A DNA stretch of 64,000 nt from Candidatus Accumulibacter conexus. Lineage in GTDB: Bacteria > Pseudomonadota > Gammaproteobacteria > Burkholderiales > Rhodocyclaceae. Positions 12,075 through 53,734 of the stretch are shown in pieces. The DNA lies in assembly GCA_017592775.1 (NCBI GenBank), contig JAGFNJ010000026.1, positions 1 through 64,000 on the forward strand, read 5' to 3'. Made by a program: the position numbers and the translations under genes. The notes under the pieces are model-generated. The model did no database searches. It saw only the letters and a program-made list of their open reading frames with translations, and was not told the DNA's origin. Position 1 is the stretch's first letter; every line of letters begins with the position of its first letter.

Positions 12075-12079
12075 TTCCG

Positions 12080-23447: not shown

Positions 23448-23506
23448 GGCAGTTTTCCTTCAGTGAAGAGCCATGCGGCCGGTGTGTAATTGTCACGAGT
23501 GTGGAC

Positions 23507-26358: not shown

Positions 26359-26386
26359 TGTCGTCCGGGTATGCAGGTGGGGGGTG

Positions 26387-32770: not shown

Positions 32771-32776
32771 CGGCCT

Positions 32777-34681: not shown

Positions 34682-34756
34682 GTATCTCTCCGTGGGTCAG
34701 GTCTAGGGCGTGGTTGGTAGTCAGAGACGGTGAACACGTTTCACTGTCGCGAGACG

Positions 34757-37063: not shown

Positions 37064-37750
37064 TCAGAGTTCCTTCACCGGTAGGAGGTCTGGCTGCCGG
37101 TGAATGATCTCCTGATAGTAATCGTAGGCATGCTCCACGCTGTCACAATGATGCAGCTTCCCGTCATGCAAGACATGTGCCGTCTGGCAGTACATCTTGA
37201 TTACGTTCGCGTCGTGGCTGACGAGAATGTAGGCGCGGTCCTTGCGCTTGTGCAGGAGTTCGTAATGGCTCTTCTCATGGAAACGGGCGTCGCCGACGAC
37301 CATCGCCTCATCGATGAGGAAACAGTCAAACTCGATTGCCATCGAGAGTGCGAAGGCCAGGCGCGTCAACATGCCATGGGAGTAATGCTGGACCGGCTCG
37401 CGAAAATAGGGTCCGAGTTCGGCAAAATCTTCAACAAAAGGCAGGAGAGGCTTGTAATCCACACCGTAGACACGGCAGACGAACTTCAGGTTGTCGAGGC
37501 CGGTGAGATGGGTCTGAAAGGCGCCGCCGAAGGCGAGTGGCCATGAAACACTCATGTCCCGGCGGATGGTTCCGGCTGATGGAAGGTCCGCCCCACTGAG
37601 AATACGGATGAGCGTGGATTTGCCGGCGCCGTTGCAGCCGACGATGCCGAGCTTCTCTCCCGGATGCACCGTCAGGTCGATCCCATCGAGCACGGTGTGC
37701 AAGCCATTGCGCGTCGGGTAGGTCTTGTGGACGTCGCGCAGGGTGATCAT
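37064..37750 (-). CDS. kpsT: Capsule/polysaccharide ABC transporter ATP-binding protein, KpsT-like
   Basis: 228 residues. Walker A G-C-N-G-A-G-K-S, the KpsT-type signature Y-S-H-G-M in place of L-S-G-G-Q, Walker B F-D-C-F-L-I-D-E, and the switch histidine in V-S-H-D. It powers export of a lipid-linked polysaccharide through KpsM. The short length means there is no C-terminal carbohydrate-binding domain, unlike Wzt of O-antigen systems, so export is probably of the capsule type. It overlaps kpsM by 4 bases (ATGA). Confidence 0.93.
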   Translation of the reverse strand: MITLRDVHKTYPTRNGLHTVLDGIDLTVHPGEKLGIVGCNGAGKSTLIRILSGADLPSAGTIRRDMSVSWPLAFGGAFQTHLTGLDNLKFVCRVYGVDYKPLLPFVEDFAELGPYFREPVQHYSHGMLTRLAFALSMAIEFDCFLIDEAMVVGDARFHEKSHYELLHKRKDRAYILVSHDANVIKMYCQTAHVLHDGKLHHCDSVEHAYDYYQEIIHRQPDLLPVKEL

Positions 37751-38544
37751 CTCATCCGTACCCTGCGGCCGGTCTCACGCGCCAGTGCGAGTCCAATCAG
37801 CGTCAGCACGAGGTTGGCCGCCGCAAAATAGGCTGGGTCAGCATGGGTGGGCACCAAGTCGCCAAAATAGCCTTCGCGGATCATCTCCACCCCGTGCACC
37901 ATGGGCAGCCAGAGAACGGTTTCCTGGGCAGGTTTTGGCAGCCACTCCACCATATAGACGGCGCCGGAAAGGGGGAACAGCAGATAGGTGATGATGGGCC
38001 AAGTACGTTCGAAGGTTTCCGAGCGCTCCGACAAGGCACCGACAGTCAGTCCCAACCCGAGAGAGAACCAGGCCAGAAGAAGCCAGCCACCGATGATCGG
38101 CCACGGGTCTTCCGGCCAGTTCATGGCGCCAGCGCTGGCAAAGATGATGGTCAGTACCGCGATCGAGGCGGTGGCACCCACCCACTCGAGAATGACTCGC
38201 GCCAGGAAGATGTCGAGGACGTTCACGTTGCGGTGATACATCAGCGGGCGATTCGACTCGATCGCCTTCGAGCAGCGGCCCGAAGTATTGCGCCACATCA
38301 GGACCGACGAATAGCCGGTTATGGCAAAGGCTATGATCGGGATACTGGAGAGGATGTGCATCTTGGCTAGGTACCAGAAGGCGGCAACTCCCAAGGTAAA
38401 CAGGGCGGGCTCGATGATGATCCAGAGCACCCCGAAGCCATGCCTGCCATAGCGCGTGATCGCTTCGCGCAGCAACAACGCACCGATGACGCGCTGCTGG
38501 ATGGCGACGGAACGGGCGAAGCTTGTTCGACCGATGGTTGTCAA
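37747..38544 (-). CDS. kpsM: Capsule/polysaccharide ABC transporter permease, KpsM-like
   Basis: 265 residues, ABC-2 type inner-membrane permease with six predicted transmembrane helices. Typical KpsM phrases are L-L-L-R-E-A-I-T-R-Y-G-R-H-G-F-G near the N terminus, W-R-N-T-S-G-R-C, and P-L-S-G-A-V-Y-M-V-E-W-L-P toward the C terminus. With KpsT it moves the polysaccharide from cytoplasm to periplasm. It overlaps both kpsE and kpsT by ATGA, so the three are one coupled unit. Confidence 0.93.
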   Translation of the reverse strand: MTTIGRTSFARSVAIQQRVIGALLLREAITRYGRHGFGVLWIIIEPALFTLGVAAFWYLAKMHILSSIPIIAFAITGYSSVLMWRNTSGRCSKAIESNRPLMYHRNVNVLDIFLARVILEWVGATASIAVLTIIFASAGAMNWPEDPWPIIGGWLLLAWFSLGLGLTVGALSERSETFERTWPIITYLLFPLSGAVYMVEWLPKPAQETVLWLPMVHGVEMIREGYFGDLVPTHADPAYFAAANLVLTLIGLALARETGRRVRMR

Positions 38545-39677
38545 TCCTGATGCTCCCTGATGCCGGCGACCAGCATCGTCAGGACGCCCCAGGCGATCAG
38601 GCCGAGAACGAAAACAGCAAGGATGGCACGCAGGCGGCGTGGCTCCATCGCCTCGTCGGGCAGACTGGGTTGCGCGACGCGCTCCAAGTAGAGCGCTTGG
38701 CGCTGCGCGTCGTTGCGCGCCTGTTCAAGCGAAGCGAACGCGCTTGCGAGCTGCTTGTCGGCAAACTCCTTTTCCAGTGCGAGCCGCTGGAACTCGGCCG
38801 CCTTGCTGGCCAGCGAGCGGCCGCCGCCGGTAACCCGGGCCGACTCGAGTTCGACTTCGTGTTCGAGGATCTCGATGCGCTTCCTGAGCACCGGGATCTG
38901 TGGGTTGTCCTTGGTGATCATCTGCAATTGCACCAGTTGCGTCTTGGCAGCGATGAGTTCCTCCTGCAACCGGGCGATCTGCTGCAGGGGTATGGCGGAC
39001 TGCCGCTCCGGGTCGATGACGCCCTTCTCGTTGCGGTAGCGGGCCAGGGTCAAGGCCGCGAGCTTCGCTTTCTTCTCCGCGTCCGTGACCTCGTTGGCGG
39101 CAAAGCGGATCATGTCCTGCCGTCCGCGCTCGTTGAGGCGATTGACCAGCTTTTCGCTCATCTCCAGCAGCCTCTGGTTGATGCGCAGTGCATCCTCGGC
39201 ATTGAACGCGCGAACGGTCACCGTGGCGATCGACGAGGCGGAGTCGAGTTGCGTGCTGACGACCATCTTCTGGTAGTAGCGGTGCAGGTTCTCGAAACTG
39301 TCGTCCCAGTCGAGGCCGGGAAAGCGCCTGAACAGATCCCCCTGGCCGAAGGCGCGCCGGAGGTCCAATTCCTGGTCGAGCACGCGCAGCGCATCGCGCG
39401 AGAGGACGAAATCCTGCACCGTGTAGCTGTCGTCCTGCGAACGTGTGAACCCCGCGCCCTTGAAGATGATGCCCAGGGGTGAGGTCGCTTGCCGCTCCGG
39501 GCTGCGTACGACGAAACGGGATTCGCTGATGTAGATGTCGGAGGCGATGAGACCAAAATACAGGATGGCCAGAAACGTCGGCACGACCACGGTCAGCCAG
39601 AAAAGTCTGTGGGTGGTCCAGGATCGCACGAGGCTCGCGCGGTTGCACTTGCTGGCGATGGAAGTGATTGGGGTCAT
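38541..39677 (-). CDS. kpsE: Capsule polysaccharide export inner-membrane protein, KpsE-like
   Basis: 378 residues. One transmembrane helix is near the N terminus (about 28-48, W-L-T-V-V-V-P-T-F-L-A-I-L) and one near the C terminus (about 347-368). Between lies a large periplasmic part with coiled coil, the polysaccharide co-polymerase type 3 layout of KpsE/CtrB. It links the KpsMT transporter to an outer-membrane polysaccharide channel. No KpsD/Wza-type channel gene lies in the window and must be elsewhere. It is the first gene of the block, with a 610-base non-coding region upstream that probably holds the promoter. Confidence 0.9.
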   Translation of the reverse strand: MTPITSIASKCNRASLVRSWTTHRLFWLTVVVPTFLAILYFGLIASDIYISESRFVVRSPERQATSPLGIIFKGAGFTRSQDDSYTVQDFVLSRDALRVLDQELDLRRAFGQGDLFRRFPGLDWDDSFENLHRYYQKMVVSTQLDSASSIATVTVRAFNAEDALRINQRLLEMSEKLVNRLNERGRQDMIRFAANEVTDAEKKAKLAALTLARYRNEKGVIDPERQSAIPLQQIARLQEELIAAKTQLVQLQMITKDNPQIPVLRKRIEILEHEVELESARVTGGGRSLASKAAEFQRLALEKEFADKQLASAFASLEQARNDAQRQALYLERVAQPSLPDEAMEPRRLRAILAVFVLGLIAWGVLTMLVAGIREHQD

Positions 39678-40287: not shown

Positions 40288-41655
40288 CTACACCTTGCGG
40301 GTCCTGCTGCTCCGTGCCTCCTGTCGGCCGGGCGCCGACTCATCGACCGCGCGTTCGGGCAGCCACGGCAGCCCTTCTTCGAGGCGCTGCACCGTTGCCG
40401 GTACCGCCATCTTGAGCGCCTGGCGCGTGTAGTAGCCGCCGCGCACGTGCAGTGCACCAGCGAGGAGACGAATGAAATCGCCGACGAGGTCGGCATCCGG
40501 TGCTGCTGGCGCTCGCCAGAAGCGATCCAGCTCGCCGGCGAAGCTCAGCCCGGCAACGTCGAAAATGGCACTGCCCATCACCTTGAGCGGACAACCGACC
40601 AGAAGAGCAGACAGGCCGACGGTGCTGTTGACCAGCACGCAGCCCGTCGCCTGGCGCAACATGGCGACGACATCGCCGCTGCTGACGCAATGAACACGGT
40701 TGGCGACCCCAAGTTGTGCGGCGATCTCGCCGATCACCTTCGGCCAAGGAGTGATACCGGGGTCGAGCGGGTGCACCTTGACGACCAGGCGGGACAGTGC
40801 GGGCGAGTGCGCGGCGAAGGAAGCGATGATCTCGCGCGCAGCCGTCGGCATGTCGGGGTAGCGCGAATGGTCGCGAATCTGGTAATCGGTCGAGAGTTGC
40901 AGCGGCAGGACGAAGGTCGGCACTTCCTGCCGTTGCAGCGCGTCAAGTGTCTGCGCCGTGCGTCGTTGCTCGCCGCCGCCGCAGATCCAGCGTCGCAGCC
41001 AGCCCGCGTACTCGGCGAAGGGGTGGTGTATGGCGTGCCGCCGGTAGCCCGGGTAAAGTGGGCGGGAAAGCACCTCGGCGACGTTGTAGACCACGTCCAG
41101 CATGGCCAGCCGCCAGAACGGTGTGGTGCAGCGCACGGCCAGGTCAGGCACCGGGTACTGCTGCGCCAGCGAGCGGATGAGCGCGGGATCGCGCGGCATG
41201 CGCGAGTAGGTGCCCATGCCGTCACGTTCGAGAACCAGCCAATCCGGTCGCAGGTAGCCGAGTTCGCTGCAGATGATCTCGGCACCGCGGGCACGCGCTT
41301 CCTCGATGGCAATCCGGTGATGTGGTCGCCGGTCACCGAGCAGGAAGAGGTGCGTGATCGGGTGGTCATCCAGGAACTGGGCGATGTAGTCCCGCCAGTC
41401 GTCGATGCCGCCGCGGTAGTCGCGCGCCGGCAGGCGCCAGAACAGGCGGTCGCCGAGATGCAGATTGATGCGCGAGACGCGGTGGCCGCGTGCGATCAGC
41501 TCGCGTGCGACCTCGTACATGTAGAATGACGACGGTCCTTGGAGAAAGAGAACGTGCAATGTTCTGTCGAGCTGCTGTCGGCTGGAGGGGTGGCTGGCTG
41601 CGCGGGCGACCGGGGCCCCCGGGCTGGGTCGGGCTGGCGATGATACGGCAAACAC
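40288..41655 (-). CDS. kpsS: KpsS/RkpJ-like capsule polysaccharide biosynthesis/export protein
   Basis: About 455 residues. L-H-V-L-F-L-Q-G-P-S-S-F-Y-M-Y-E-V is the usual KpsS opening, followed by G-H-R-V-S-R-I-N-L-H-L-G-D. The C-terminal half holds K-V-H-P-L-D-P and the N-S-T-V-G-L-S-A-L-L-V-G donor-site stretch. KpsS and KpsC are beta-Kdo transferases that build the linker between lipid anchor and capsule; rhizobial RkpJ is related. The start is uncertain: a GTG at 41655 has AGG close by, a TTG at 41559 begins the conserved part, and the longest frame (41739) overlaps the divergent SDR gene. Confidence 0.83.
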   Translation of the reverse strand: MFAVSSPARPSPGAPVARAASHPSSRQQLDRTLHVLFLQGPSSFYMYEVARELIARGHRVSRINLHLGDRLFWRLPARDYRGGIDDWRDYIAQFLDDHPITHLFLLGDRRPHHRIAIEEARARGAEIICSELGYLRPDWLVLERDGMGTYSRMPRDPALIRSLAQQYPVPDLAVRCTTPFWRLAMLDVVYNVAEVLSRPLYPGYRRHAIHHPFAEYAGWLRRWICGGGEQRRTAQTLDALQRQEVPTFVLPLQLSTDYQIRDHSRYPDMPTAAREIIASFAAHSPALSRLVVKVHPLDPGITPWPKVIGEIAAQLGVANRVHCVSSGDVVAMLRQATGCVLVNSTVGLSALLVGCPLKVMGSAIFDVAGLSFAGELDRFWRAPAAPDADLVGDFIRLLAGALHVRGGYYTRQALKMAVPATVQRLEEGLPWLPERAVDESAPGRQEARSSRTRKV

Positions 41656-41674
41656 GCTGCCTGGTGGTAGCGCC

Positions 41675-42460
41675 GTGACGCCGCGGCGCGGAAGGGTGGA
41701 GCCGCGCCGCGTGCTGATCACCGGCGCCAGCGGCGGCATCGGCGGTGCGTTGGCCAGGGCCTATGCCGAGCCGGGGCGTACGCTCGTTCTGCAGGGGCGG
41801 GACACGCAGCGGCTCGCCGCGGTGGCGTGGGAGTGCGCGTTGCGCGGTGCGCGCGTGCTGACCAAGGTTCTCGACCTGCGTGATCGCATCGAGCTTGTGG
41901 CATGGCTGCAATCGGTTTCGGATGAGGAGCCGCTGGACCTCGTGATCGTCAATGCCGGCGTCAATACCAGTATCGGGGCTGACGCCGCGGGCGAGCGCTG
42001 GGCCGCCGTCGAGGAACTGATCGCGGTCAATGTGCTCGCCGCCATGGCGACCGTCGATGCCGTGTTGCCGGCGATGCGCGCTCGCCGTTCGGGCCAACTG
42101 GCGCTGATCAGTTCGCTCGCCGCCTACTACGGTCTGCCGGTGACGCCGAGCTACTGCGCCAGCAAGGCGGCCGTCAAGGCCTACGGCGAGGCCATCCGTG
42201 GCTGGCTGGCGGGCGAAGGCGTGCGCGTCAGCGTCGTCATGCCGGGCTACGTCGAGTCGCAGATGTGCCGCGAGATGCCCGGGCCGAAGCCCTTCCTGTG
42301 GTCGGCCGAGCGTGCCGCGCAGCGCATCCGGCGGGGGCTGGCGCGCAACCGGCCGCGCATCAGCTTTCCCTTTCCGCTCAATCTCGGCACCTGGTTGCTG
42401 GCGGTCCTGCCGCCGACGCTGTCCGAATGGTTGCTGCGCCGGCTCGGCTACCGTGGGTGA
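41675..42460 (+). CDS. rkpH: Short-chain dehydrogenase/reductase, RkpH-like
   Basis: 261 residues, classical SDR. The nucleotide motif is T-G-A-S-G-G-I-G, then N-A-G-V-N and the catalytic S-S-L-A-A-Y-Y and Y-C-A-S-K. NADPH or NADH use is not decided. In the rhizobial rkp-1 region an SDR stands beside the alpha-oxoamine synthase; reduction of a 2-amino-3-ketone to an amino alcohol, as 3-ketosphinganine reductase does, is the natural inference. The start is GTG, and an internal start nearby is possible. Its last 8 bases overlap the next gene. Confidence 0.82.
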   Translation: MTPRRGRVEPRRVLITGASGGIGGALARAYAEPGRTLVLQGRDTQRLAAVAWECALRGARVLTKVLDLRDRIELVAWLQSVSDEEPLDLVIVNAGVNTSIGADAAGERWAAVEELIAVNVLAAMATVDAVLPAMRARRSGQLALISSLAAYYGLPVTPSYCASKAAVKAYGEAIRGWLAGEGVRVSVVMPGYVESQMCREMPGPKPFLWSAERAAQRIRRGLARNRPRISFPFPLNLGTWLLAVLPPTLSEWLLRRLGYRG

Positions 42461-43988
42461 TTCGTTCTGGTCAGCCGTGCTGCCGGCGATGGTCTGCAGT
42501 GGCGCCCTGGCGCTGCTCGTCGAGCGCCTGCTCAAGCCGCCGCCGCGGACCTGCTGGCGGCGACCCGTGGCGGCACTGGCCATCCACTTCGGCCTCTGGC
42601 TGTGGTTTGCGAGCGTGCTGCTGCTGCTTCTGCAGCGTCCGGTCTTTGCCGCCAGTTCGCTGCTCGCGGGTTTCCTGTTCGTCGTCCTGGTCAGCAACGC
42701 GAAGGTGCATTCCCTGCGCGAACCCTTCATCTTCCAGGACTTCGAGTATTTCAGCGATGCCCTGCGCCATCCGCGTCTCTACATGCCGTTTCTCGGCGCT
42801 GCACGGGCGCTTCTGTCGCTGTTCGCGCTCGGTCTGGCGATTGCCACCGGGTTGACGATCGAGGATTCTCTGCTTGGCCGGATGTCGGTCGGGGAGTTCC
42901 TCAGCGGCGCGGCAACGCTGGTGCTGGCCGGGCTGCTGCTGATCGGGTTCGGGGCGCGGCACAGGCTCGCCGTCGCGTTCGACCCGATCGCCGACTTGCG
43001 GCAGCTCGGCTTGTTGACGGCCCTCTGGCGCTACGGCGAGGAGGAGCATGTGCCCTGCCAGCCGCAGTCGCCCTACGAGCGGCTGCCCTGCGCTTCCGCG
43101 GTCACCGCCGGGTCGGCGACGCTGGTGGTCGTGCAGAGCGAGTCGTTCTTCGATACGCGGCGGCTGTTCTCCGGCATTCGTGGCGATGTCCTGAGCGAGT
43201 TCGACTCGCTGTGCCGCAGCGCCGTCTGTCATGGGCCGCTGCAGGTTGCCGCCTGGGGCGCCAATACCGTACGCACCGAGTTTGCTTTTCTCTCCGGTCT
43301 GGCTGCCGAGTCGCTCGGCGTACACCGGTTCAACCCCTATCGCCGGCTTGGCCGTCAGGGCGTGGCGACTCTCGCCACCTTCCTCGGGCGCCGTGGCTAC
43401 CGGACGATCTGCGTACACCCGTACGCAGCCAGCTTTTACTCCCGCCACACGGTGTTCCCACTGCTCGGGTTCGATGAGTTCATCGACATTCGTGCCTTTG
43501 CCGGCGCGGCGCGGGAGGGTCCGTATGTCAGCGACCTGGCGGTTGCCGAGCAGGTCGCTGCCCTGCTCGAGAAGGCTGCCGGGCAGCCGGTGTTCGTCTT
43601 CGTCATCACGATGGAAAACCACGGCCCCCTGCATCTGGAGAAGATCGCTCCGGGTGACGAAGAGCGGCTCTATTCGGTTCCGCCTCCGCCAGGCTGCGAC
43701 GATCTGACTGTCTATCTGCGGCACCTCGTCAACGCTGACCGGATGGCTGGCCGGCTGCGTGCGGTGATCGATGGCCTGCCTGGCCCCGCCTGCCTGTGTT
43801 GGTTCGGTGACCACGTGCCGATCATGCCCGGCGCCTATCACGCGCTCGGCGTGCCGGACGGACGCACCGATTACCTCATCTGGCGCAAGGGCGATCGCCC
43901 CGGAGCGGCGGCGCCGCGCGAGATGCGGATCGACGAACTGGGCGGCCATATCCTGCAGCAGATGGGTCTGCTGGCAGCGCGCGAGTGA
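42453..43988 (+). CDS. rkpI: LTA-synthase/sulfatase-family membrane protein, RkpI-like
   Basis: 511 residues. The N-terminal part holds about five transmembrane helices (to about residue 175). A large extracytoplasmic alkaline-phosphatase-fold domain follows: V-V-V-Q-S-E-S-F-F-D supplies a metal ligand, N-T-V-R-T-E-F-A-F-L-S-G the candidate Thr nucleophile, and C-W-F-G-D-H-V-P the later Asp-His ligands. Family members transfer phosphoglycerol or phosphoethanolamine from phospholipids. In a Gram-negative capsule locus it could decorate a lipid or glycan. The start is a GTG overlapping the SDR stop (GTGGGTGA); the frame before it is an SDR shadow. It is convergent with the oxoamine synthase gene. 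Confidence 0.8.
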   Translation: MGDSFWSAVLPAMVCSGALALLVERLLKPPPRTCWRRPVAALAIHFGLWLWFASVLLLLLQRPVFAASSLLAGFLFVVLVSNAKVHSLREPFIFQDFEYFSDALRHPRLYMPFLGAARALLSLFALGLAIATGLTIEDSLLGRMSVGEFLSGAATLVLAGLLLIGFGARHRLAVAFDPIADLRQLGLLTALWRYGEEEHVPCQPQSPYERLPCASAVTAGSATLVVVQSESFFDTRRLFSGIRGDVLSEFDSLCRSAVCHGPLQVAAWGANTVRTEFAFLSGLAAESLGVHRFNPYRRLGRQGVATLATFLGRRGYRTICVHPYAASFYSRHTVFPLLGFDEFIDIRAFAGAAREGPYVSDLAVAEQVAALLEKAAGQPVFVFVITMENHGPLHLEKIAPGDEERLYSVPPPPGCDDLTVYLRHLVNADRMAGRLRAVIDGLPGPACLCWFGDHVPIMPGAYHALGVPDGRTDYLIWRKGDRPGAAAPREMRIDELGGHILQQMGLLAARE

Positions 43989-44020
43989 ACCGGGGGTCAG
44001 CTGTGGCCGCTTCGCCGGAG

Positions 44021-45376
44021 CTACAGCCGCTGCATTTCGGCGGCCAGCGCGCTGACGGTCTCGCGAATCTGCTCCTCGCTGTGCTCGCAGGAAATGAAGA
44101 AGCGCAGCCGGGCCGCTTTCTCCGGAACGGCGGGGTAAACGATCGGCTGCACGTTGATGCCGCGGGCGAAGAGCGCGGCGGCGAGGCAGGCGGCCCGGAC
44201 CGACCCACCGGTGATCGCCGGGATCACCGCCAGACCGGCGCTGGTCCCGGTGTCGATGCCGGCTGCACGGGCCAGCGCGAGAAAGAGCTGGCCACGTGCC
44301 TGCAGGGTTCGCACGCGTTGCGGCTCGCGTTGCAGGCAGCGCAGCGCCGCCAGCGAAGCGGCGGCGACCGGCGGTGGCATGCCGACGCTGTAGAGAAAGC
44401 CGGGCGCCAGGTGGCGCAGGTGCTCGACGAGAGCGCTCTCCCCGGCAACATAGCCGCCACATCCGGCGAGGGCCTTGCTCAGGGTGCCCATCCAGATGTC
44501 GACGTCGCTGCTGTCGACGCCGAAGTGCTCCCTGATGCCGAGCCCGTTGTTTCCCATGACGCCGAAGGAGTGTGCCTCGTCGATCATCAGGAAGGCGCGG
44601 TACTTGCGCTTGATGTCGATGAAGCGCGGCAGGTCGGGGTAGTCGCCGTCCATGCTGTAGATCCCTTCGAGCACGATCAGCACCCGCTGAAAGTGTGCTC
44701 GCTGCTCGGCCAGCAGGGAATCGAGGGCAGCCCAGTCGTTGTGCGAAAAGGGCAGGCGGCGGGCACCCGCGAGGCTGATCCCCTGCAGGACGCTGTTGTG
44801 TACCAGTTCGTCATGGACGATCAGGTCGCGTGCGCCGAACAGGTAGCCGATCGTCGTCACGTTGGTCGCGTGGCCACTGACGAAGGTGACGGCGCTCTGG
44901 CTGCCATAGGCCGCGGCAATCGCCTGCTCGAGCTCGCGGTGCACCGAGCGCTCGCCGGCGACCAGCCTGCTCGCTGAGACGGAGGTACCGAAGCGATCGA
45001 TCGCCTGTTTCGCCGCCTCGCAGACTTCGGCATGACCGGACAGGCCGAGATAGTTGTAGCTGGCGAAATTGATGTATTCGCGACCGCCGATGCGCGTGCA
45101 GGCGCCGGCAATGCCCTCATGCAGCATGAAGAAGGGGCTGTCGATCTCGAGCCGTGCGGCGCCTTCGGTAATGATCCGCAGCTGCTGGTAGCCGGGGTGG
45201 AGATCAAAGCGCCAGTGCTGCTCGGGTGTGCTCTCCGCCGCCAGTGCGGCGCTGGTCGGCGGCTTCAGATCACTGTCCTGCGCCGCCTGACGCAGCCGTC
45301 TTTCGAGTGCCTGCTGGATCAGCCGGTCCTTGATCTGCGCCGTGAGGCCGGGAAGTCCCTTACGCGCCACGGCCAT
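44021..45376 (-). CDS. rkpG: PLP-dependent alpha-oxoamine synthase, RkpG-like
   Basis: 451 residues, a fold-type I aminotransferase of the KBL/BioF/serine palmitoyltransferase group. The PLP lysine is Lys301 in G-T-L-S-K-A-L-A-G-C-G-G-Y; D-E-A-H-S is at 266-270, S-G-H-A-T-N near 167-172, and N-F-A-S-Y-N-Y-L-G-L-S near 103-113. These enzymes condense an amino acid with an acyl thioester, losing CO2, to give an alpha-amino ketone. About 80 residues precede the catalytic domain and could help dock a carrier protein. The start overlaps the PKS stop by 17 bases, so PKS and synthase are coupled, as expected if this enzyme releases the polyketide chain. Confidence 0.9.
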   Translation of the reverse strand: MAVARKGLPGLTAQIKDRLIQQALERRLRQAAQDSDLKPPTSAALAAESTPEQHWRFDLHPGYQQLRIITEGAARLEIDSPFFMLHEGIAGACTRIGGREYINFASYNYLGLSGHAEVCEAAKQAIDRFGTSVSASRLVAGERSVHRELEQAIAAAYGSQSAVTFVSGHATNVTTIGYLFGARDLIVHDELVHNSVLQGISLAGARRLPFSHNDWAALDSLLAEQRAHFQRVLIVLEGIYSMDGDYPDLPRFIDIKRKYRAFLMIDEAHSFGVMGNNGLGIREHFGVDSSDVDIWMGTLSKALAGCGGYVAGESALVEHLRHLAPGFLYSVGMPPPVAAASLAALRCLQREPQRVRTLQARGQLFLALARAAGIDTGTSAGLAVIPAITGGSVRAACLAAALFARGINVQPIVYPAVPEKAARLRFFISCEHSEEQIRETVSALAAEMQRL

Positions 45377-48300
45377 CTCTCGCGGACTTGTCGTCGCTCG
45401 GTCTGGTGGTGTTGAAGTCGGCGGCGAAACGCGCAATCTCCTCGTCCGAGACCTCGACTCCCTGCTGTCTGGCGATCAGTTCCGTCTGCGCCAGCAGCTC
45501 TTCCTGGGCTGCTGCACCTCCCCGCGCACCGTCTTCGGTCTCGCGCAACTGCAGCAGCAGGCGCTCGGCGAGCCTGCTGATCGTCGGGGTCTGACTGAGT
45601 GCCAGCACTGGCAGCCGAATGCCGAAACGTGCATCGAGGGCGACCGCCAGTTCGACGCCCATCAGCGAATCGAGGCCCATGTCGAAGAGCGATCGGTTGG
45701 CATCGATCTTCTCCGGCGGAATGCGCAGGATCTCGCCAATCTCGCTCCGGAGCATATCGCCAATGACGACCAGCAACTCGTCGTCGGGGAGTTCGGCCAG
45801 CAGCCGCCTGATGTCCTGCGACTGATCGTCGTCGTCGCCGCCGCACTCGCGGGCCAGTTCGCCAAACTTCGGGCTGCCTGCGGACGGCAGGACGCGGCTC
45901 AGCGCCTGCCACTCGAACTCGAGTGCCGCCAGGCCGGAGCGATCGGCAAGCAGCATTTCTTCGAGCACGTCGAGCGCCAGCTCCGACTTCAGTGCCGACC
46001 CGCCGAGGCGATTCTCGAGAGCGTCGCGCATCTTCTCGTTGCGTGCGAGGAAGCCGGAATCGGCAATCGGACCCCAGCCCACAGCGGTCGCACACAGACC
46101 CTGTGCGCGACGATGCGCGGCGAGTGCCTCGAGCCAGGTGTTGGCGGCGACGTAAGCTGCTTGCCCCGGGTTGCCGAAGGCTGCGGTCGCCGACGAGAAG
46201 AGCACGAACAGATCGAGCGCTTGCGGGCGGGTCAGTTCATCCAGGTGGCGGGCGCCCAGCACCTTCGCTGCCAGCGCCTGGCGAATCTGGGTATCGTCGA
46301 GATTGCGCACCAGCGCGTCGTCGATCACCGTTGCCGCGTGCAGGATTCCCCTGAGTGGTGGCAGATCGCCGTCCGTCACGTCGAGCAGTGCCGCCAGAGC
46401 GTCCCGGTTGGTGACGTCGCAGGCTGCCGCGTGCACCCGCACCCCCTGCTCTGCGAGGCGCTCGATGGCTGCCCTGGCGGCGGCGGAATCGGGACCGCTG
46501 CGGCTGATCAGGATCAGGTGGCGGGCACCCCGGCTGGCCAGCCACTCGGCGGCGCGCAGACCAAAGCCGCTGAGGCCGCCGGTGACCAGGTAGGAGGCGT
46601 CGGCGGCGAGTTGCAGCCGCCTGCGCGGGCCGGGCTTTGGCGGCTGCACGCGCTTGATGCCGTGGTGATAGGTGATGACGATCTTGCCGATCTGGCGTGC
46701 CTGCTGCATGTAACGGAAGGCTTCGACGACGTCCTCGGCCTCGAAGCTGCGGTAGGGCAGGGGATGCAGAATGCCGTCGCTGAACAGCTCCATCAGCTCG
46801 CCAAAGAGCCGGCGCGTCAGCTCCGGATGGAGCAGCATCAACTGGTCGGCGTCGATGCCGAAGTAACTGACATTGTTGCGGAAGGGACGCAGACCGATGC
46901 GGGTGTTCTCGTAGAAATCCCGCTTGCCGAGTTCGAGGAAGCGGCCGAAGGGGCGCAGCACGCGGAAGTTGCGATTGATCGCTTCGCCGGCGAGCGAGTT
47001 GAGGACGACATCGACGCCATGGCCACCACTTTGCTCGAGGATCTGGTCGGCGAAGGCCAGCGAACGCGAGTCGAAGATGTGCACGACGCCCAGCAGGCGG
47101 AGAAAATCGCGCTTCTCGTCCGAGCCGGCGGTGGCGTAGATCTCGGCGCCCAGCCAGCGCGCGATCTGGATCGCCGCGATGCCAACGCCTCCCGCCGCGC
47201 CGTGAATCAGGACCCGCTCACCCGCCTGCAGGCGGGCCAGGTGGTGCAGCGCGTAGTAAACGGTGAAGAAGGTGCTCGGAATCGTCGCTGCCGCTTCACA
47301 GGAGATTCCCGGCGGGATATGGGCGACGGCAGTGCTCTGGGTGAGTACGCGGTTGCCGAAGCTCGAAGGAGCGAAGCCGACCACCTCGTCGCCGGGGCTG
47401 AAGGCCGTGCAGTTGCTGCCGACACGCGAGATCACGCCGGCGAACTCGAAACCGAGCGTCGGTCCGGCAAAGCCGTTCTCGATCGCCTCGTCGGAGAGCA
47501 GGCCCAGTGCGTACATGACGTCGCGGAAGTTGAGCCCGCTCGCCTGTACCTCGACTTCCACCTGATCCGGCGCAGGCGCCACGCGCGGATGTGTCTCCCA
47601 GCGCAGATTGCGCAGTTGCCCGGCGAACTGGAAACCGAGTGCGATGGTCGGTGATTCGAGAAGCCGCGGTGCACGGGCATCCGGGCGCGGTTCGTCGCGT
47701 AGGCGCGGGACGTAGCGCTGGCCAGTGGCGGTGAGAATGATCTCCAGTTCGTCGTCGGGCTGCTCGAACTCTTTGTCGAGCAGGCAGGCGGCCGCCTGTG
47801 GGGGCATCGGCAATGCCAGGTCGATCAGGCGGACGCTGCCGGGCTCTGCCTCGTTGAGCATCGTTCGCGCGAAACCACAAAATGCCGCATCGTCGCTGGG
47901 ACCGGCGATCGAACCGTCGCCCCCGGCTGCGGCGGCAGCGGGCAGCAGGGCCGTCCCGGCGTTGCCCGTGATCAGCCAGCGGATCGTGCGGGTGCCCGAC
48001 TGCTCGCACGCCTGCGCGATACGTGCCGCCAGCGCACAGCGCTCGACCTGGCGTGTCAGTGCCTCGTCGGCGGACACGGTGGGCGACGTCGGTGCGAGGC
48101 AGGTGAGCATGACGAGGCCGTCGAGTTCGCCGTAACTGGCGGTGGTCTGCTGCAGCAGCGCGGCGAGCGCCGCCGTGTCGGTGGTGCTGGCCTGAATCAC
48201 CAGGTCCTTTCTGGCCTGCAGCTTCCTCGCGAGTTCGTCGGCAAGGCGGGCGGAATAGCCCACCGGGTCGGCGAGCAGGATCCAGCTGCGGATGCTGGCT

Positions 48301-51300
48301 TCGGCTGCCACGACGGGCGCTGCGGCCGCTTCGTCGACCTCGGCCAGCAACAGATAGGGGCCGGAGAGGGTATCGGGGGAAAACTCGCAGGGGTCGGCGC
48401 AGCGACAGCCCAGATCCTCGAGTTGGCGTTGCCAGAAGGAGCTCGGCCGCTGGCTCGAGATCCAGCGGCCGCTTTCGGTGTGCGACCAGCCGTCGCGCTG
48501 GGCACCGAAGACGAAGTCGATCCAGCGTGAGGGCTGCTGGCCGACAACGATCAAAGAGGCGCCGCCGGCGAGGCAGCGGCGTGCATGGCGGAGGGCCTGC
48601 AGCGCCTGCTCGGTGGTCGGGAAATCCAGCATGACGATCGCCATCATGCACGATCCTGCTGCGGGCTCCTGACTCCCGTCGGCCCGGTGGGCGTCATCGA
48701 TCAGGCTGGTCCGGATCGTCGGGAAGAATTCACCAAGGCGCACCTGTGCCTCCTCGAGCGCGGTTGTCGAGGTGCTGGCAAAGCAGTAGTCCGAGCGCGT
48801 GAAGTCGAGGGCGAAGCAGATGTCCATGGCAAGCGCCGGCGCGCCGTCGCTGATCTCGACGATGCCGAGGCGCTGTCCTGCTGGCAATGCGGCGAGCGCC
48901 TCCGTCACCAGGGCACTCAGCGCCTGTCCGAGCTTCATCCTGCCACGGGCGCCGATGACCTGCAGCAGCAGTGTCGCCAATGACGATTCCTGCGGGCAGA
49001 TCTCGGACAGGGTGGAACTGCCCGCGATGAGCGCCGGCAGGTGCAGGCCGACCCGTCCGACCGAATGGATGATCTGGAAGTAGTCCGGGTAGTCGGCGAG
49101 CAGGCTGTTCCAGATGTCCTCCGCGGACGACTCCTCCCGGTGATCAGGGACAATCGTCCAGCCATCGGCCGCCGCGGCGAGCGACCGCTCATCGTTCGCG
49201 AGCCGCAGGAGATCGGCGAGAAAAGGTGCGCTGTCAGGACTGGCGGACTGGCAGGACAGGATCATCGCCGCCGACAGCGTGCCGTCCGCAGCGGCCATCT
49301 GCTGCAGGGCACGGCGCGTGAAGCGGCTGCACAGGCTGTCCAGGAGCGGATCGACTTCTTCCGTGTAGCGGCGGTGCGTTCCCTTGAGGGCCGCTCGTTG
49401 CGTGACGGCGGCGAGGGCCGAGCGGACGCGGTCGAAGCCCAGTGCCGGCGCGCCGGCAGGCTGTCGGGCGTGCGGCCTTGGCGTCGCGTGCAGGGCGAGA
49501 AAGCGCAGCCGGTCGCGGCCACTCCTGTTCAGGCGAACGCCGCGAAAGCGCGCGTCCTTGACGACCGCGATGACGCGGCCGGCAGCCGAAAAGAGTGCAA
49601 ACTCGGCCTGCAGCGAACGCGCGCTGCGCCGCAGCAGCGTCGCGCGGGCGAAGCAGGGCGGGCCCTCCTGTCCAGCGCGAAGGATGACGCGGCCGAATCG
49701 CGTCGGGATGAAGGCGATCGCATCATCGGCGTCGATGGCCTTGTGCAGGAGTTGGAAGAGCAGCTGAAACGCGCTGTCGAGCAGGGCCGGATGCAGGTGG
49801 GCGTGCGGGATTTCGGCTTCGACGCCAGGCGCAACGCGCAAGGCGGCAAGCGCCGACTTGCCGTCGATCCAGCCCTGTTCGATGCACTGGAAGGCCGGGC
49901 CGTAGTGGATGCCGATCGCCCGCGTCAGCGCCGCGTGGCTGTCGGCGTCGAAGTCCGCCGGACGTTGCGGCAGATCCGGCAGCACTTCGCGCAGCAGGTT
50001 GTCCTGTGCCTCACGAACGACACGCGCCGACGCGTGCACGGCCCAATCGGTGCCGCCAAGCTGCTCGCGGCTGCGGATCGTCAGCTTGCCGTCGAGCGGG
50101 TCGATCGACAGGCGAACGACAGCAGAGCGATCATCGGCGAGCAGCAGGGGCGAGTGGATCTCCAGATCCTCGATCTCGACGATTGCCGACGGGTGCCAGA
50201 CAAGCGCCGCCGCCAGCGCCATTTCGGCATGGGCGGACCCCGGGAGAACGGCCGCCTCGCCGACGACATGGTCCGCGAGCACGGGGTTGAGCTGGGTGTC
50301 GAGCTGGTTTTCCCAGGTCAGCTCGTGCTGCGCCAGCGGATAACCGAGCAGCGGATGAATCTTGCGGCGGTCGATCAGGCCGAGTGCTTCGCTGGTCACC
50401 GGGTGCCAGTGGCGTTCGCGCTGCCACGGGTAACCCGGCAGGCGAACGAAGCGTCCAGGTTTCGGAAAGGCCGTTCGCCAATCGACGGCGGCGCCGGCAA
50501 TCGCGACCTCGCGCGCCGCCGACCTGATCCGCTGCGCGCCGTCGTCGTTGCGCGTGCCGGTCGCGATCACGCGGCCGTCGATCGAGCGCGCCTTGAGACA
50601 GTCATTCAGATAGGTGCGCAGGATCGGGTGTGCTCCGATCTCGACGAAGATCGTGATCCCCTGGTCGAGAAGCGAGTCGACTGCCTGGGCGAAGAGGACT
50701 GGTTCGCGAATGTTGCGCCACCAGTACTCGGCGCCGAGATCCTCGCCTGGCAGCGGCGAGCCGCTGACCGTCGAGCAGAAAGGCAGCGCACTCGCGCGTG
50801 GCTCGAGCCCGGACAGCGCCTGCCTGATCCCGGGCTCGAGGCGGTCCATTGCCGGGCTGTGGAAGGCGTAGTCGAGATCAAGCCGTTTCCAGGGCACCTG
50901 CCGGCTGCTCAGCGCGTCCTCGAGTACCGCCAGCGCTGGCTGCTCACCGGCGATCGTCAGGCCGCGCACGCTGTTGATGCCAGCGATCGTCAGGTCGCCG
51001 GCAAGCCCCAGTTCGGCGAGCAGACTCGCCGCGGCTGGCTGCGGCAGCGCGACCGCGGTCATCTGCCCATGGCCGCGGGTCGTTCCCTGCAGCAGGCTGC
51101 GCTGGTAGATCACCTCGACGGCATCCGCCAGGCTCAAGGCGCCGGCTGCCCAGGCCGCCGCGACCTCACCGACACTGTGCCCGGCGACGACGACCGGCGT
51201 CACCCCGTGCCGCTGCAGGAGCCTGGTGATGCCGACCTGCAGGGCAAAGAGGGCTGGCTGCGCAATCTCGGTCTGGTCGTAGCGATCGTCACCGTTCTCG

Positions 51301-53039
51301 CCGGCCAGTTCGTCGCTCAGCGAGAAATCGGCGTGCCGCCGGAACAGCGTGTCGACCTCGCGCACCGCCTCCCGGAACAACGGTTCCTCTGCCAGCAGTT
51401 GCCGGCCCATTCCGGACCACTGACAGCCATTGCCCGAGTAGATGAACGCCGGCCCACTGGCGGCCCCCACCATCCGGCCACTGGTCACTGCCGCATCCGC
51501 ACCGCGGTCTTCGGCGAAGTCGAGCAGGGCACGCCTGATCTCCGCCAGTGTCTGCGCTTCGACGACCAACCGCTCCTCCAGCCAGTCGCGGCGAAACGCG
51601 GCGCTGTGCGCGATGTCGTAGTACGCCGCCGGCGGTTGGTCGGCGAGAAAGGCAGCGAGACCGCCGGCGGCTGCCTGCAGCGCCTGCTCGCTGCGCGCCG
51701 AGACGAGCAGCGGTGGCAAGGTGCCGGGGGCGACCGCTGGCCGACCACGGGCGCGCCGTTGCGGCGGGCTCTCGATGATCAGGTGCGCGTTCGAGCCGCC
51801 GAAGCCGAAGGAGTTGACGCCGATCGTCAGCTTGCCGGTTTTCGGCAACGGGCGGTTGCGGGTGACCAGCTGGATGTTCCAGTCGCTGGTGCGGATGTGC
51901 GGATTGACCTTGCTGACGCCGATGGTCGCCGGCACCTGACGGTGTTCCAGGCAGTGCAGGGCCTTGACCAGGCCGGCGGCGCCGGAGGCCGTTTCGAGAT
52001 GGCCGAGGTTGCTTTTCACCGAGCCGATCGGCAGCGGCTTGCCAGACGGGCGACGTTTGCCGAGTGCATTGCCGATGGCCAGTGTTTCGATCGGGTCGCC
52101 AACCGCAGTGCCGGTGCCATGCGCCTCGAGATAGTCGATCGCTGCCGGATCGATGCCGGCCGCGGCGTAGGCTTCCTCGAGCAACGCCGCCTGCACCTCG
52201 GCGCTGGGGACGGTCAGTCCCGACTTGCGGCCATCGGTGTTGACCGCCGAGCCGGCGACGATTGCCAGGATCGGATCGCCGTCGGCGACAGCCTGGTCGT
52301 GGTCCTTGAGAAAGAAGACGCCGCCGCCCTCCGAGCGCACGTAACCGTCGGCCGCCGCGTCGAAGACGTTGCAGCGCCCGCGTGGCGACAGCATCGACGC
52401 CTTGGCGAAGCCGAGGAAGCCGTAAGGATGCAGGTGCAGGCTGATGCCGCCTGCCAGTGCCTGCGACACCTCGCCGCTGGCGATGGCGCGGCACGCCTGG
52501 TGCAGGGCGACCAGTGACGACGAGCAGGCGGTGTCGATCGCCATGCTGGGCCCCCGCAGGTCGAGCACGTAGGAGATCCGGTTGGCGGCGATGCTGGCGG
52601 TGTTGCCCGTCGCCATCGTCGAGTCGGCGACCGCCAGGTCATCTGCCATGCGGTAGGAGTAGTCGGCGCTGGCGATGCCGATGAAGACCCCGCAGCGACT
52701 GCCGCGCAGCCGCGATGGCCGGATGCCGGAGTTCTCCAGTGCTTCCCAGCTCATTTCGAGCAGAAGTCGTTGCTGCGGATCCATCAGGGCCGCTTCGCGC
52801 GGCGAGATGCCGAAGAAGGCGGCGTCGAAGGTTGTCACGTCACCGATCGATCCGGCGGCGAAGGTGTAGGTCGTTCCCGGGTGGTCCTTGCGCGGGTGCA
52901 GGAAGGTCTCCAGCGCCCAGCGCTGCGGATCGACCGTGCCGACCAGGTCGCGGCCGGCGAGCAGATCCTGCCAATAGGCCTCGGCGCTGGTCCCTGGCAT
53001 GCGGAAGGAATAGCCGGTGATGGCAATTCGCCGTGTCAT
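45360..53039 (-). CDS. rkpA: Reducing type I polyketide synthase (KS-AT-DH-psiMT-ER-KR-ACP), RkpA-like
   Basis: 2559 residues, one module. KS (1-425): Cys172 in D-T-A-C-S-S-S-L, His307 in E-A-H-G-T-G-T, His347 in S-N-L-G-H. AT (530-840): Ser622 in G-H-S-V-G-E; Y-A-F-H-S suggests malonyl use. DH (893-1170): His924 in D-H-V-V-G-E-A-A-V-L-P-G and Asp1088. About 1240-1580 resemble a methyltransferase whose SAM motif is degraded (V-E-I-S-D-G-A), so probably inactive. ER (1800-2125) has H-G-A-A-G-G-V-G; KR (2145-2390) has T-G-G-L-S-G-F-G, Tyr2296 and Asn2300; ACP has Ser2458 in G-L-D-S-L. There is no thioesterase. The full reductive loop predicts a saturated, fatty-acid-like chain made iteratively and passed to the coupled oxoamine synthase. 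Confidence 0.95.
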   Translation of the reverse strand: MTRRIAITGYSFRMPGTSAEAYWQDLLAGRDLVGTVDPQRWALETFLHPRKDHPGTTYTFAAGSIGDVTTFDAAFFGISPREAALMDPQQRLLLEMSWEALENSGIRPSRLRGSRCGVFIGIASADYSYRMADDLAVADSTMATGNTASIAANRISYVLDLRGPSMAIDTACSSSLVALHQACRAIASGEVSQALAGGISLHLHPYGFLGFAKASMLSPRGRCNVFDAAADGYVRSEGGGVFFLKDHDQAVADGDPILAIVAGSAVNTDGRKSGLTVPSAEVQAALLEEAYAAAGIDPAAIDYLEAHGTGTAVGDPIETLAIGNALGKRRPSGKPLPIGSVKSNLGHLETASGAAGLVKALHCLEHRQVPATIGVSKVNPHIRTSDWNIQLVTRNRPLPKTGKLTIGVNSFGFGGSNAHLIIESPPQRRARGRPAVAPGTLPPLLVSARSEQALQAAAGGLAAFLADQPPAAYYDIAHSAAFRRDWLEERLVVEAQTLAEIRRALLDFAEDRGADAAVTSGRMVGAASGPAFIYSGNGCQWSGMGRQLLAEEPLFREAVREVDTLFRRHADFSLSDELAGENGDDRYDQTEIAQPALFALQVGITRLLQRHGVTPVVVAGHSVGEVAAAWAAGALSLADAVEVIYQRSLLQGTTRGHGQMTAVALPQPAAASLLAELGLAGDLTIAGINSVRGLTIAGEQPALAVLEDALSSRQVPWKRLDLDYAFHSPAMDRLEPGIRQALSGLEPRASALPFCSTVSGSPLPGEDLGAEYWWRNIREPVLFAQAVDSLLDQGITIFVEIGAHPILRTYLNDCLKARSIDGRVIATGTRNDDGAQRIRSAAREVAIAGAAVDWRTAFPKPGRFVRLPGYPWQRERHWHPVTSEALGLIDRRKIHPLLGYPLAQHELTWENQLDTQLNPVLADHVVGEAAVLPGSAHAEMALAAALVWHPSAIVEIEDLEIHSPLLLADDRSAVVRLSIDPLDGKLTIRSREQLGGTDWAVHASARVVREAQDNLLREVLPDLPQRPADFDADSHAALTRAIGIHYGPAFQCIEQGWIDGKSALAALRVAPGVEAEIPHAHLHPALLDSAFQLLFQLLHKAIDADDAIAFIPTRFGRVILRAGQEGPPCFARATLLRRSARSLQAEFALFSAAGRVIAVVKDARFRGVRLNRSGRDRLRFLALHATPRPHARQPAGAPALGFDRVRSALAAVTQRAALKGTHRRYTEEVDPLLDSLCSRFTRRALQQMAAADGTLSAAMILSCQSASPDSAPFLADLLRLANDERSLAAAADGWTIVPDHREESSAEDIWNSLLADYPDYFQIIHSVGRVGLHLPALIAGSSTLSEICPQESSLATLLLQVIGARGRMKLGQALSALVTEALAALPAGQRLGIVEISDGAPALAMDICFALDFTRSDYCFASTSTTALEEAQVRLGEFFPTIRTSLIDDAHRADGSQEPAAGSCMMAIVMLDFPTTEQALQALRHARRCLAGGASLIVVGQQPSRWIDFVFGAQRDGWSHTESGRWISSQRPSSFWQRQLEDLGCRCADPCEFSPDTLSGPYLLLAEVDEAAAAPVVAAEASIRSWILLADPVGYSARLADELARKLQARKDLVIQASTTDTAALAALLQQTTASYGELDGLVMLTCLAPTSPTVSADEALTRQVERCALAARIAQACEQSGTRTIRWLITGNAGTALLPAAAAAGGDGSIAGPSDDAAFCGFARTMLNEAEPGSVRLIDLALPMPPQAAACLLDKEFEQPDDELEIILTATGQRYVPRLRDEPRPDARAPRLLESPTIALGFQFAGQLRNLRWETHPRVAPAPDQVEVEVQASGLNFRDVMYALGLLSDEAIENGFAGPTLGFEFAGVISRVGSNCTAFSPGDEVVGFAPSSFGNRVLTQSTAVAHIPPGISCEAAATIPSTFFTVYYALHHLARLQAGERVLIHGAAGGVGIAAIQIARWLGAEIYATAGSDEKRDFLRLLGVVHIFDSRSLAFADQILEQSGGHGVDVVLNSLAGEAINRNFRVLRPFGRFLELGKRDFYENTRIGLRPFRNNVSYFGIDADQLMLLHPELTRRLFGELMELFSDGILHPLPYRSFEAEDVVEAFRYMQQARQIGKIVITYHHGIKRVQPPKPGPRRRLQLAADASYLVTGGLSGFGLRAAEWLASRGARHLILISRSGPDSAAARAAIERLAEQGVRVHAAACDVTNRDALAALLDVTDGDLPPLRGILHAATVIDDALVRNLDDTQIRQALAAKVLGARHLDELTRPQALDLFVLFSSATAAFGNPGQAAYVAANTWLEALAAHRRAQGLCATAVGWGPIADSGFLARNEKMRDALENRLGGSALKSELALDVLEEMLLADRSGLAALEFEWQALSRVLPSAGSPKFGELARECGGDDDDQSQDIRRLLAELPDDELLVVIGDMLRSEIGEILRIPPEKIDANRSLFDMGLDSLMGVELAVALDARFGIRLPVLALSQTPTISRLAERLLLQLRETEDGARGGAAAQEELLAQTELIARQQGVEVSDEEIARFAADFNTTRPSDDKSARDGRGA

Positions 53040-53125: not shown

Positions 53126-53734
53126 TCAGGAGCGCGGCCTAGTATAAGCCTCGAAGGCTTCGCCGCGCATCCGGTAGCCGGCGACGCCCATGCCGGTATC
53201 GGTGCGATCGAGCCCGAGCGTGCCGCTGACCCACATCGCGTCCATGGTGCGCATGCCGCCGACGGGCTTTTCGGCGACGACATGGATGATCTGGTTGGCC
53301 GGTGGCGGCGGTACATGGATGCAGGCGCCGAAGTAGGGTACCAGCAGGAACTCGGTGACCTGCTCGCCGCGACGTTCGAGCGGCACGACGAAGCCGGCGA
53401 TGCGTACCTTCTGTCCGCTCATCGCCTTCTCGGCCGGTGCCTGGTCCCACAGCCGCCGGGCGCTCTCCAGCGCCTCCTGCGCTTTCGGATCGCTGTCCTG
53501 CAGGCGCGCGAGGTCGAGACCCTTGAAGGCCGCCATCGGATCCCAGCCCTTGGGCATCAGATCGTCCCAGCCGATCAGGCGGTAGCCTTGCGCGCCCTTG
53601 CGGTCGTCAGGCAGGCGGTCGCCGACACGGTAATCGGCCGGCTTCGTTTCCTTGCGCTGCGTCTGCGCCTGCGCGTGCTGTGGCTGCGACAACAGAACGG
53701 CGAGGCCGAGACAGATGGCAAGCAGGAGTGGCAT
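53126..53734 (-). CDS. Exported DUF3299-type protein
   Basis: 202 residues with an N-terminal signal peptide (L-L-L-A-I-C-L-G-L-A-V-L-L, cut near residue 23). The body matches the DUF3299 pattern: Y-R-L-I-G-W-D-D-L-M-P near the front, then G-Q-K-V-R-I-A-G-F-V-V-P-L-E and L-V-P-Y-F-G-A-C-I-H-V-P-P-P-P-A-N-Q. It is likely periplasmic. The conserved C-x-H-x-P-P-P-P may bind metal, which is inference. It lies 86 bases upstream of the PKS on the same strand but is found widely without a PKS, so it is not clearly part of that pathway. Confidence 0.8.
   Translation of the reverse strand: MPLLLAICLGLAVLLSQPQHAQAQTQRKETKPADYRVGDRLPDDRKGAQGYRLIGWDDLMPKGWDPMAAFKGLDLARLQDSDPKAQEALESARRLWDQAPAEKAMSGQKVRIAGFVVPLERRGEQVTEFLLVPYFGACIHVPPPPANQIIHVVAEKPVGGMRTMDAMWVSGTLGLDRTDTGMGVAGYRMRGEAFEAYTRPRS

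Follow-up and report, generated by a model that had tools for sequence, protein, structure and literature searches.

The DNA analysed here, a 64-kb stretch referred to as the window, makes up contig C22 of a Candidatus Accumulibacter genome (4.87 Mb, completeness 100) and carries five grouped genes for a polyketide synthase (PKS), an alpha-oxoamine synthase (AOS), a short-chain dehydrogenase/reductase (SDR), a membrane phosphotransferase related to lipoteichoic acid synthase (LTAS) and a KpsS-like transferase of 3-deoxy-D-manno-octulosonic acid (Kdo). We consider it probable, at roughly 0.64, that these genes make a sphingoid lipid, and prime it, as the anchor of a surface glycan exported by an ABC transporter. 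By its gene content, the locus belongs to the rkp-1/wcb kind. Since phosphoglycerol-sphinganine, the predicted lipid, shares the head group of the phosphatidylglycerol used by KpsS, the cassette is best read as a dedicated supply of KpsS acceptors. The idea of a specific lipid carrier made by the rkp-1 products is known already and is attributed to Kiss et al. 1997 by a review (PMC4881576). What is added here is the joining of the rkp-1/wcb kind to sphingolipid chemistry published in 2025, together with a form that lacks KpsC, evidence for modularity and a hint concerning membrane orientation.

The lipid genes and the chain they would build

Pfam and NCBIfam profiles located all five gene types beside kpsEMT, where the first-pass annotation had placed them. 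The PKS, of the iterative reducing type (RkpA/WcbR/SgaA kind; 45360–53039, minus strand, 2559 aa), was resolved by Pfam into ketosynthase, acyltransferase, dehydratase, linker, enoylreductase, ketoreductase and acyl carrier protein domains (KS-AT-DH-linker-ER-KR-ACP). Its KS motifs DTACSSS, HGTGT and DPQQR are intact, the AT motifs GHSVG and xAFH are present, and the ER, KR and ACP motifs are in place; the DH motif pattern was unmatched, yet Pfam detected both DH parts. Methyltransferase, thioesterase and reductase domains were absent from the Pfam results. This domain set and these motifs point to a saturated chain, whose release must fall to another protein. The AFH motif suggests that the AT domain takes malonyl-CoA, by analogy with a rule stated for another PKS (PMC3908369).

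The AOS gene (RkpG/WcbT/SgaB kind by Pfam; 44021–45436, minus strand) overlaps the 3′ end of the PKS gene with its own 5′ end, and comparison with homologues indicates ATG 45376 as its likely start. A single-module KS-AT-DH-ER-KR-ACP protein without a release domain, followed by an AOS, is what would be expected of the sga-type PKS-sphingolipid pathway. In Pseudomonas fluorescens MYb115, deletion of sgaA (PKS) or sgaB (AOS) abolishes the C24, C26 and C28 sphinganines, and purified SgaB has serine palmitoyltransferase (SPT) activity, using L-serine as the partner of acyl-CoA in the condensation while barely accepting alanine or glycine (Peters et al. 2025, PMC12134224). We infer from its sequence that the window AOS has SPT activity with a sphinganine product. 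Compared with four Pseudomonas loci (L032, L057, L068 and L069), the window proteins were 51–53% identical for PKS, 66–69% for AOS (PfSgaB not being among those compared), 61–63% for SDR and 45–47% for LTAS; identity to the Sinorhizobium meliloti AOS was 48%. The sequences of solved structure nearest to the AOS were BioF/Kbl and serine palmitoyltransferases.

It is very improbable that the AOS takes a different amino acid or yields a non-sphingoid product, whether of the 1-deoxysphinganine type or a different amino ketone. Such an outcome would fit the NCBIfam results, in which BioF and glycine C-acetyltransferase models scored best, followed by SPT, all under cut-off. Against it stand the close identity to the Pseudomonas AOS proteins and the strong serine preference of the P. 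fluorescens enzyme (PMC12134224). The canonical bacterial SPT sphingolipid pathway was rejected on scores of 285.5, 263.6 and 203.1 bits against SPT cut-offs of 640, 500 and 670. The sponge-symbiont swf PKS, defined by altered DPQQR and HGTGT motifs and a sulphotransferase-domain partner (PMC3908369), was likewise rejected, as both motifs are intact here and the partner genes differ. As a side observation, a related AOS at L007 1–2709 (G092:C207) follows an acyl-AMP ligase and an ACP domain in one fused protein, which might carry out this kind of release on a chain supplied as fatty acid.

The SDR gene (RkpH/WcbP/SgaC kind; 41675–42460, plus strand; PF00106, E=8e-39) encodes a proposed 3-keto reductase, the role also proposed for the SDR of MYb115 (PMC12134224). 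The first-pass annotation had the PKS chain released by the AOS with an amino acid and then reduced by the SDR; for the release step, SPT activity, near-exclusive use of serine and sphinganine products are demonstrated in the Pseudomonas homologue, where the reduction is proposed.

Proposed head group, Kdo priming and export

The LTAS-like protein (RkpI/WcbQ kind; 42453–43988, plus strand) has the LtaS/sulfatase fold (PF00884, E=1e-33) and five hydrophobic segments; its open reading frame (ORF) is open from 42198, with GTG 42453 as the most likely start. Its best solved relatives are GacH (E=9e-12), a phosphoglycerol transferase and the closest of them, and LtaP (E=4e-8). A threonine at the nucleophile position, together with Asp-His, Glu and His, was invariant in 5/5 and 28/28 aligned proteins, and we take the roles of this threonine and of the metal-binding residues to match those of the LtaS/GacH catalytic residues. 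In MYb115, a +154 Da series most likely represents phosphoglycerol-sphingolipids, a structure proposed from exact mass, and the sections of PMC12134224 consulted name no enzyme for the phosphoglycerol step. The phospho head group of the first-pass annotation can be narrowed to phosphoglycerol, on the strength of GacH; the LTAS-like protein is the candidate enzyme for the step.

The location of this step, a difficulty that the first-pass annotation did not raise, bears directly on the anchor reading, and against it, for known LtaS-type enzymes act outside the inner membrane and KpsS acts inside. Loop charges were counted in 33 of the 53 aligned LTAS proteins, the others lacking at least 15 residues in the first membrane segment. 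In 33/33, the loops predicted to lie inside if the catalytic domain is cytoplasmic held, when summed, more Lys+Arg; the first loop alone exceeded the two opposite loops in 30/33, with two equal and one lower. The E. coli proteins EptA and OpgB, which are periplasmic and served as the sole topology controls, showed the usual pattern as judged by eye. These sequence features hint that the orientation of the LTAS family is reversed, with the catalytic domain facing the cytoplasm, which, if true, would solve the conflict between an outside LtaS and an inside KpsS. The charge pattern is weak evidence for such a reversal, and it would be less telling still if the conserved charged loop 3–4 is catalytic, as it may be.

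Alternatively, the LTAS-like protein could act outside the cell membrane on an exported glycan or an exported lipid, in which case the anchor would be plain or N-modified sphinganine. We regard this as distinctly unlikely, even though the protein is homologous to LtaP and to GacH, which decorates an exported glycan outside the membrane, and although EptA and OpgB, its relatives in E. coli, are periplasmic proteins with loop charges to match. The charges of all 33 family members point the opposite way, and in the related genome G242 the LTAS gene stays with the lipid genes despite different exporter and glycan genes. Phosphoglycerol-sphingolipids are, moreover, reported in P. fluorescens (PMC12134224).

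The KpsS-like beta-Kdo transferase (RkpJ kind; 40288–41739, minus strand) was identified by PF05159 (E=1.8e-69) and by the NCBIfam KpsS model (E=8.9e-61, under its cut-off), and its N-terminus is probably shorter than the ORF. Residues E159, QxxxD (281–285) and HP (323–324) were invariant in 5/5 aligned proteins; the Glu, QxxxD and HP residues kept are those given for KpsC by Doyle et al. (PMC10148158), and the catalytic QxxxD and Glu expected in KpsS of a group 2 capsule are present. The protein is 46% identical to its S. meliloti counterpart and 35–37% to KpsS of the four Pseudomonas loci, and a search for relatives of solved structure gave no match at E 0.001. E. coli KpsS places one Kdo on phosphatidylglycerol, which KpsC then extends (PMC10148158, PMC11666461). 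In the Accumulibacter genome, KpsS is the sole PF05159 match, so that KpsC is absent, as it is in G244, a relative assembled as a single contig; other members of the genus do have KpsC-like matches. The proposed pathway would therefore make no poly-Kdo, and we predict one Kdo alone at this point, or else a second sugar other than Kdo.

Adjoining the KpsS gene, just beyond the interval 40288–53039, lie kpsE, kpsM and kpsT (37064–39677), all on the minus strand and all belonging to the group 2 set. They encode a KpsE-like polysaccharide co-polymerase (38541–39677; TIGR01010, E=1e-114, 383 bits, under the NCBIfam cut-off of 437.5), a KpsM-like ABC transporter permease (37747–38544; PF01061) and a KpsT-like ATPase (37064–37750; PF00005).

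We propose the following pathway, modelled on characterized relatives. The PKS would iterate on malonyl units, and the AOS would free the resulting acyl chain, long and saturated, from the ACP of the PKS by decarboxylative condensation with serine, yielding 3-ketosphinganine for reduction to sphinganine by the SDR. The LtaS/GacH-type enzyme would then transfer glycerol phosphate from phosphatidylglycerol to sphinganine; the resulting phosphoglycerol-sphinganine is of a type reported in P. fluorescens. To the glycerol of this lipid, KpsS would add one beta-Kdo, as it does on E. coli phosphatidylglycerol. Finally, glycosyltransferases would extend the single Kdo, and KpsMTE, with an outer-membrane partner encoded elsewhere, would export the product. 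The Kdo and export steps are drawn from gene content and E. coli biochemistry.

The glycan region continues the order that runs, from right to left, through RNase E, a DUF3299 protein, PKS, AOS, LTAS-like protein, SDR, KpsS, KpsE, KpsM and KpsT, down to 22701. A family-4 glycosyltransferase adjoining kpsT (35530–37062, minus strand; PF00534) is a candidate for adding the first sugar after Kdo and has relatives at the same position in G244 and G252 (80%) and in G245 (48%). The remaining glycan genes (22701–35533, minus strand) encode glycosyltransferases, methyltransferases, a glycosyltransferase fused to a polysaccharide pyruvyl transferase (26387–28870) and two long coiled-coil proteins (30689–32770 and 32777–34681), and are less conserved than the lipid cassette among the relatives compared. 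Partly similar proteins (31–50%) to the coiled-coil pair occur in four other Accumulibacter loci, a similarity that may be unspecific for coiled coils; a role as chain-length rulers is possible. At the other end, the DUF3299 protein (53126–53734), between RNase E and the PKS, is 87–91% conserved adjoining the PKS in three relatives.

Distribution of the cassette and the case for an anchor

In sister genomes, PKS, AOS, LTAS and SDR move as a unit, judging by sequence comparison. The five proteins of G242 are close to those of the window (PKS 84%, AOS 87%, LTAS 83%, SDR 87%, KpsS 76%), its KpsM/T/E merely 27/43/30% identical, and none of the window's glycan genes was matched in the 40 kb compared. 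In G239 and G243, SDR (75%), LTAS (64–65%), AOS (74–78%) and PKS (67–68%) accompany a KpsS of only 38% identity. Thus the four lipid genes follow neither the exporter nor the type of KpsS. G244 matches the window at 80–94% from RNase E through the glycosyltransferase.

Furthermore, a PKS end lay within 1.5 kb of the AOS in 13/13 genus orthologue loci and in 4/6 more distant class loci, and an LTAS gene in 11/13 and 1/6, respectively. Because 0/23 BioF-like paralogue loci had a PKS end, LTAS or KpsS within the same distance, a chance grouping of the cassette was rejected.

Across the 28 genomes of the genus table, all searched for AOS and for PF05159, the two occurred together in 12, AOS only in four, PF05159 only in one and neither in 11 (Fisher p=0.0006). 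The single genome with PF05159 only, G240, carries its KpsS on a contig of 3.2 kb, together with the SDR and an LTAS that is cut short. One AOS match, in G270, is split over two contig ends (G270:C57:12987-13832 and G270:C4:43159-43818, residues 15–296 and 252–471). In the class sample (n=229), seven genomes had a cassette-like AOS (E<1e-100), eight a strong KpsS (PF05159 >200 bits) and four both (p=2e-5). These four, our own genome and G074, G079 and G158, have an AOS identity of at least 57%; the weaker AOS genomes G004, G092 and G197 (45–52%) were without a strong KpsS, and a split at 57%, chosen after the fact, gives p=6e-7. Strong KpsS without cassette-like AOS in G009, G116, G145 and G224 is as expected for ordinary group 2 capsules.

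Relatives were also compared at named loci, which are the best 80 of 587 AOS relatives and hence a biased sample. The PKS directly precedes the AOS in at least 62 of the 72 with 2.5 kb or more upstream, a lower bound, since L093, L104, L110 and L112 have a PKS that the distance rule, applied to stop-to-stop frames, did not accept. Among the 53 loci whose two flanks each reach 8.5 kb or more, LTAS was present in 32, SDR in 23, KpsS in 15 and any capsule gene in 23; 45/53 had a capsule gene or LTAS. The relation to RkpA/G/H/I/J that the first-pass annotation had proposed held in both profile search and synteny. The S. meliloti pSymB record holds KpsD, PKS, AOS, SDR, an LTAS ORF, KpsS and KpsF, the rkp-1 set, with the order PKS-AOS-SDR-LTAS-KpsS; its rkpI-like LTAS ORF (L035 19893–21455) is unannotated. 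A Pseudomonas plasmid locus carries PKS, AOS, PhyH, KpsC, GNAT, LTAS, SDR, KpsS, KpsC and Kdo genes; Paraburkholderia dioscoreae pII carries KpsS, SDR, LTAS, PKS, an LpxC-like gene, AOS and GNAT; and Shinella has LTAS, KpsS, PKS, AOS and SDR plus exporter genes. Caballeronia (SDR, LTAS, PKS, LpxC-like, AOS, exporter) and Halomonas/Vreelandella-type loci (PKS, AOS, SDR, LTAS) had no KpsS within the stretch examined.

Several loci place amine-directed enzymes by the AOS. One type of GNAT occurs near it in L032, L057, L068 and L069, and another in L033 and nine Burkholderia-type loci. An LpxC-family deacetylase (PF03331; NF009666 in L033) lies between PKS and AOS in Burkholderia/Cupriavidus/Ralstonia-type loci (L033 22659–23573; L034 22623–23549; and the nine Burkholderia-type loci with GNAT, L090, L095, L097, L099, L113, L115, L117, L118 and L121). 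A formyltransferase gene (PF00551; Pfam check on two) comes directly after that of the AOS, in the same orientation, in seven loci (L072, L076–L079, L081 and L083, there at 11377–12198), stands beside it on the opposite strand in L059 and is 4.6 kb off in L066. The loci with a formyltransferase directly beside the AOS are of the Thiothrix, Cocleimonas, Methylolobus and Marinobacterium type, and the enzyme's position hints at an N-formylated lipid. All three families usually have amines or N-acyl groups as their targets, in keeping with an AOS product that would retain its amine. None of the three was among the cluster genes of the window scanned with Pfam; GNATs were not searched genome-wide, and four Formyl_trans_N matches lie elsewhere in the genome.

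A different account of these genes has the cassette producing phosphoglycerol-sphingolipids in free form, as secondary metabolites with a function in the membrane or in signalling, and KpsS and the exporter as mere neighbours using ordinary phosphatidylglycerol. We hold this to be unlikely, although it has support: the MYb115 products are described as secondary metabolites with effects on a nematode host, and free phosphoglycerol-sphingolipids occur in that strain, so that such lipids need not be anchors (PMC12134224). The terms capsul, KpsS, rkp, wcb, polysaccharide, LTA synthase and Kdo do not appear in the main text of this paper, and a link between sga and capsules was not found in the open-access literature searched. 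Set against free lipids are the co-occurrence of AOS with PF05159 proteins, the adjacency of KpsS or KpsMTE in distant lineages and the requirement of rkp-1 for K-antigen and poly-Kdo secretion, according to the review (PMC4881576). No structure for the rkp-1 lipid was found in the open-access literature searched. In MYb115 itself, the tag spacing of PKS, AOS and SDR (RS19805/19800/19775) is the same as in the Pseudomonas plasmid locus (RS26445/26440/26415), where PhyH, KpsC, GNAT and LTAS are the four genes between AOS and SDR; from this spacing we infer the same four in MYb115.

Besides these free lipids and the sidedness of LtaS-type enzymes, several observations weigh against the anchor, and the first two of them also favour the free-lipid account. 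Eight of the 53 full-flank loci (L064, L065, L072, L074, L083, L120, L123 and L125) have no LTAS and no capsule gene of any kind to a distance of about 10 kb. Four genomes of the genus have AOS without PF05159: G233 (99% complete; L158, G233:C132), which has LTAS and SDR and no KpsS, G269 (93% complete), also with LTAS and SDR, and G230 and G234, both with LTAS. The three genomes added to an earlier 25-genome version brought one AOS and PF05159 pair and one exception, G269, and because this is a further AOS genome without PF05159, our confidence in the anchor was slightly reduced; its LTAS and SDR also lie about 25 kb from the AOS, contrary to a strict unity of the cassette. G249, which lacks LTAS, owes its positive score to a weak match (E=8e-6); counting it as negative gave p=0.004 in the 25-genome version; the co-occurrence tests, moreover, treat related genomes as independent. 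Finally, a kpsD-like gene was not found in the cluster or window, and four OPX matches lie elsewhere in the genome.

Beyond the window, we tentatively put forward a broader view, at somewhat less than even odds: the PKS-made phosphoglycerol-sphinganines described in 2025 may serve as anchors for ABC-exported capsules of a second and widespread class. Here, a cytoplasm-facing LtaS-type enzyme would convert sphinganine into a mimic of phosphatidylglycerol that KpsS can use, in some lineages, including that of the window, one Kdo would be enough and KpsC dispensable, and acetyltransferase-, formyltransferase- and deacetylase-type genes would vary the anchor amine elsewhere. The joined readings predict a concrete molecule, phosphoglycerol-sphinganine bearing Kdo, as capsule anchor in many Proteobacteria, and this prediction can be put to the test in existing laboratory strains. 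Confirmation of the anchor would settle a question of capsule anchoring raised in the 1990s. Accumulibacter forms granules and flocs, and the reading bears on how it holds surface polymers.

Comparison with known systems

The Sinorhizobium rkp-1 region shares all five families, PKS, AOS, SDR, LTAS and KpsS, with KpsS closest in type (46%). It differs in sequence (PKS 38%, LTAS 29% and SDR 30% identical over best local segments) and in gene order and orientation, and the window has its exporter directly adjacent. The Burkholderia wcb block (wcbO-wcbT) is alike in the same five families, seen in P. dioscoreae pII, and adds the LpxC-like deacetylase between PKS and AOS and the GNAT after AOS.

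The sgaA/sgaB/sgaC genes of P. fluorescens MYb115 offer the same one-module PKS, AOS and SDR, with the chemistry of sgaA and sgaB demonstrated there; unlike the system proposed here, their products were published as free sphingolipids, with capsules unmentioned in the main text (PMC12134224). The four other Pseudomonas loci carry KpsC and GNAT, and in three cases PhyH, between AOS and SDR, genes that the window lacks. With the E. coli group 2 capsule (KpsMTED, KpsS, KpsC), the window has KpsMTE and KpsS in common, whereas it lacks KpsC and possesses an extra lipid-synthesis cassette. Fungal pathways to sphinganine analogues presumably share the logic of a reducing PKS, AOS release and SDR reduction, the examples given in PMC12134224 being FUM13 (fumonisin) and SphF (sphingofungin); in contrast, the window system is bacterial, capsule-linked and equipped with a phosphotransferase.

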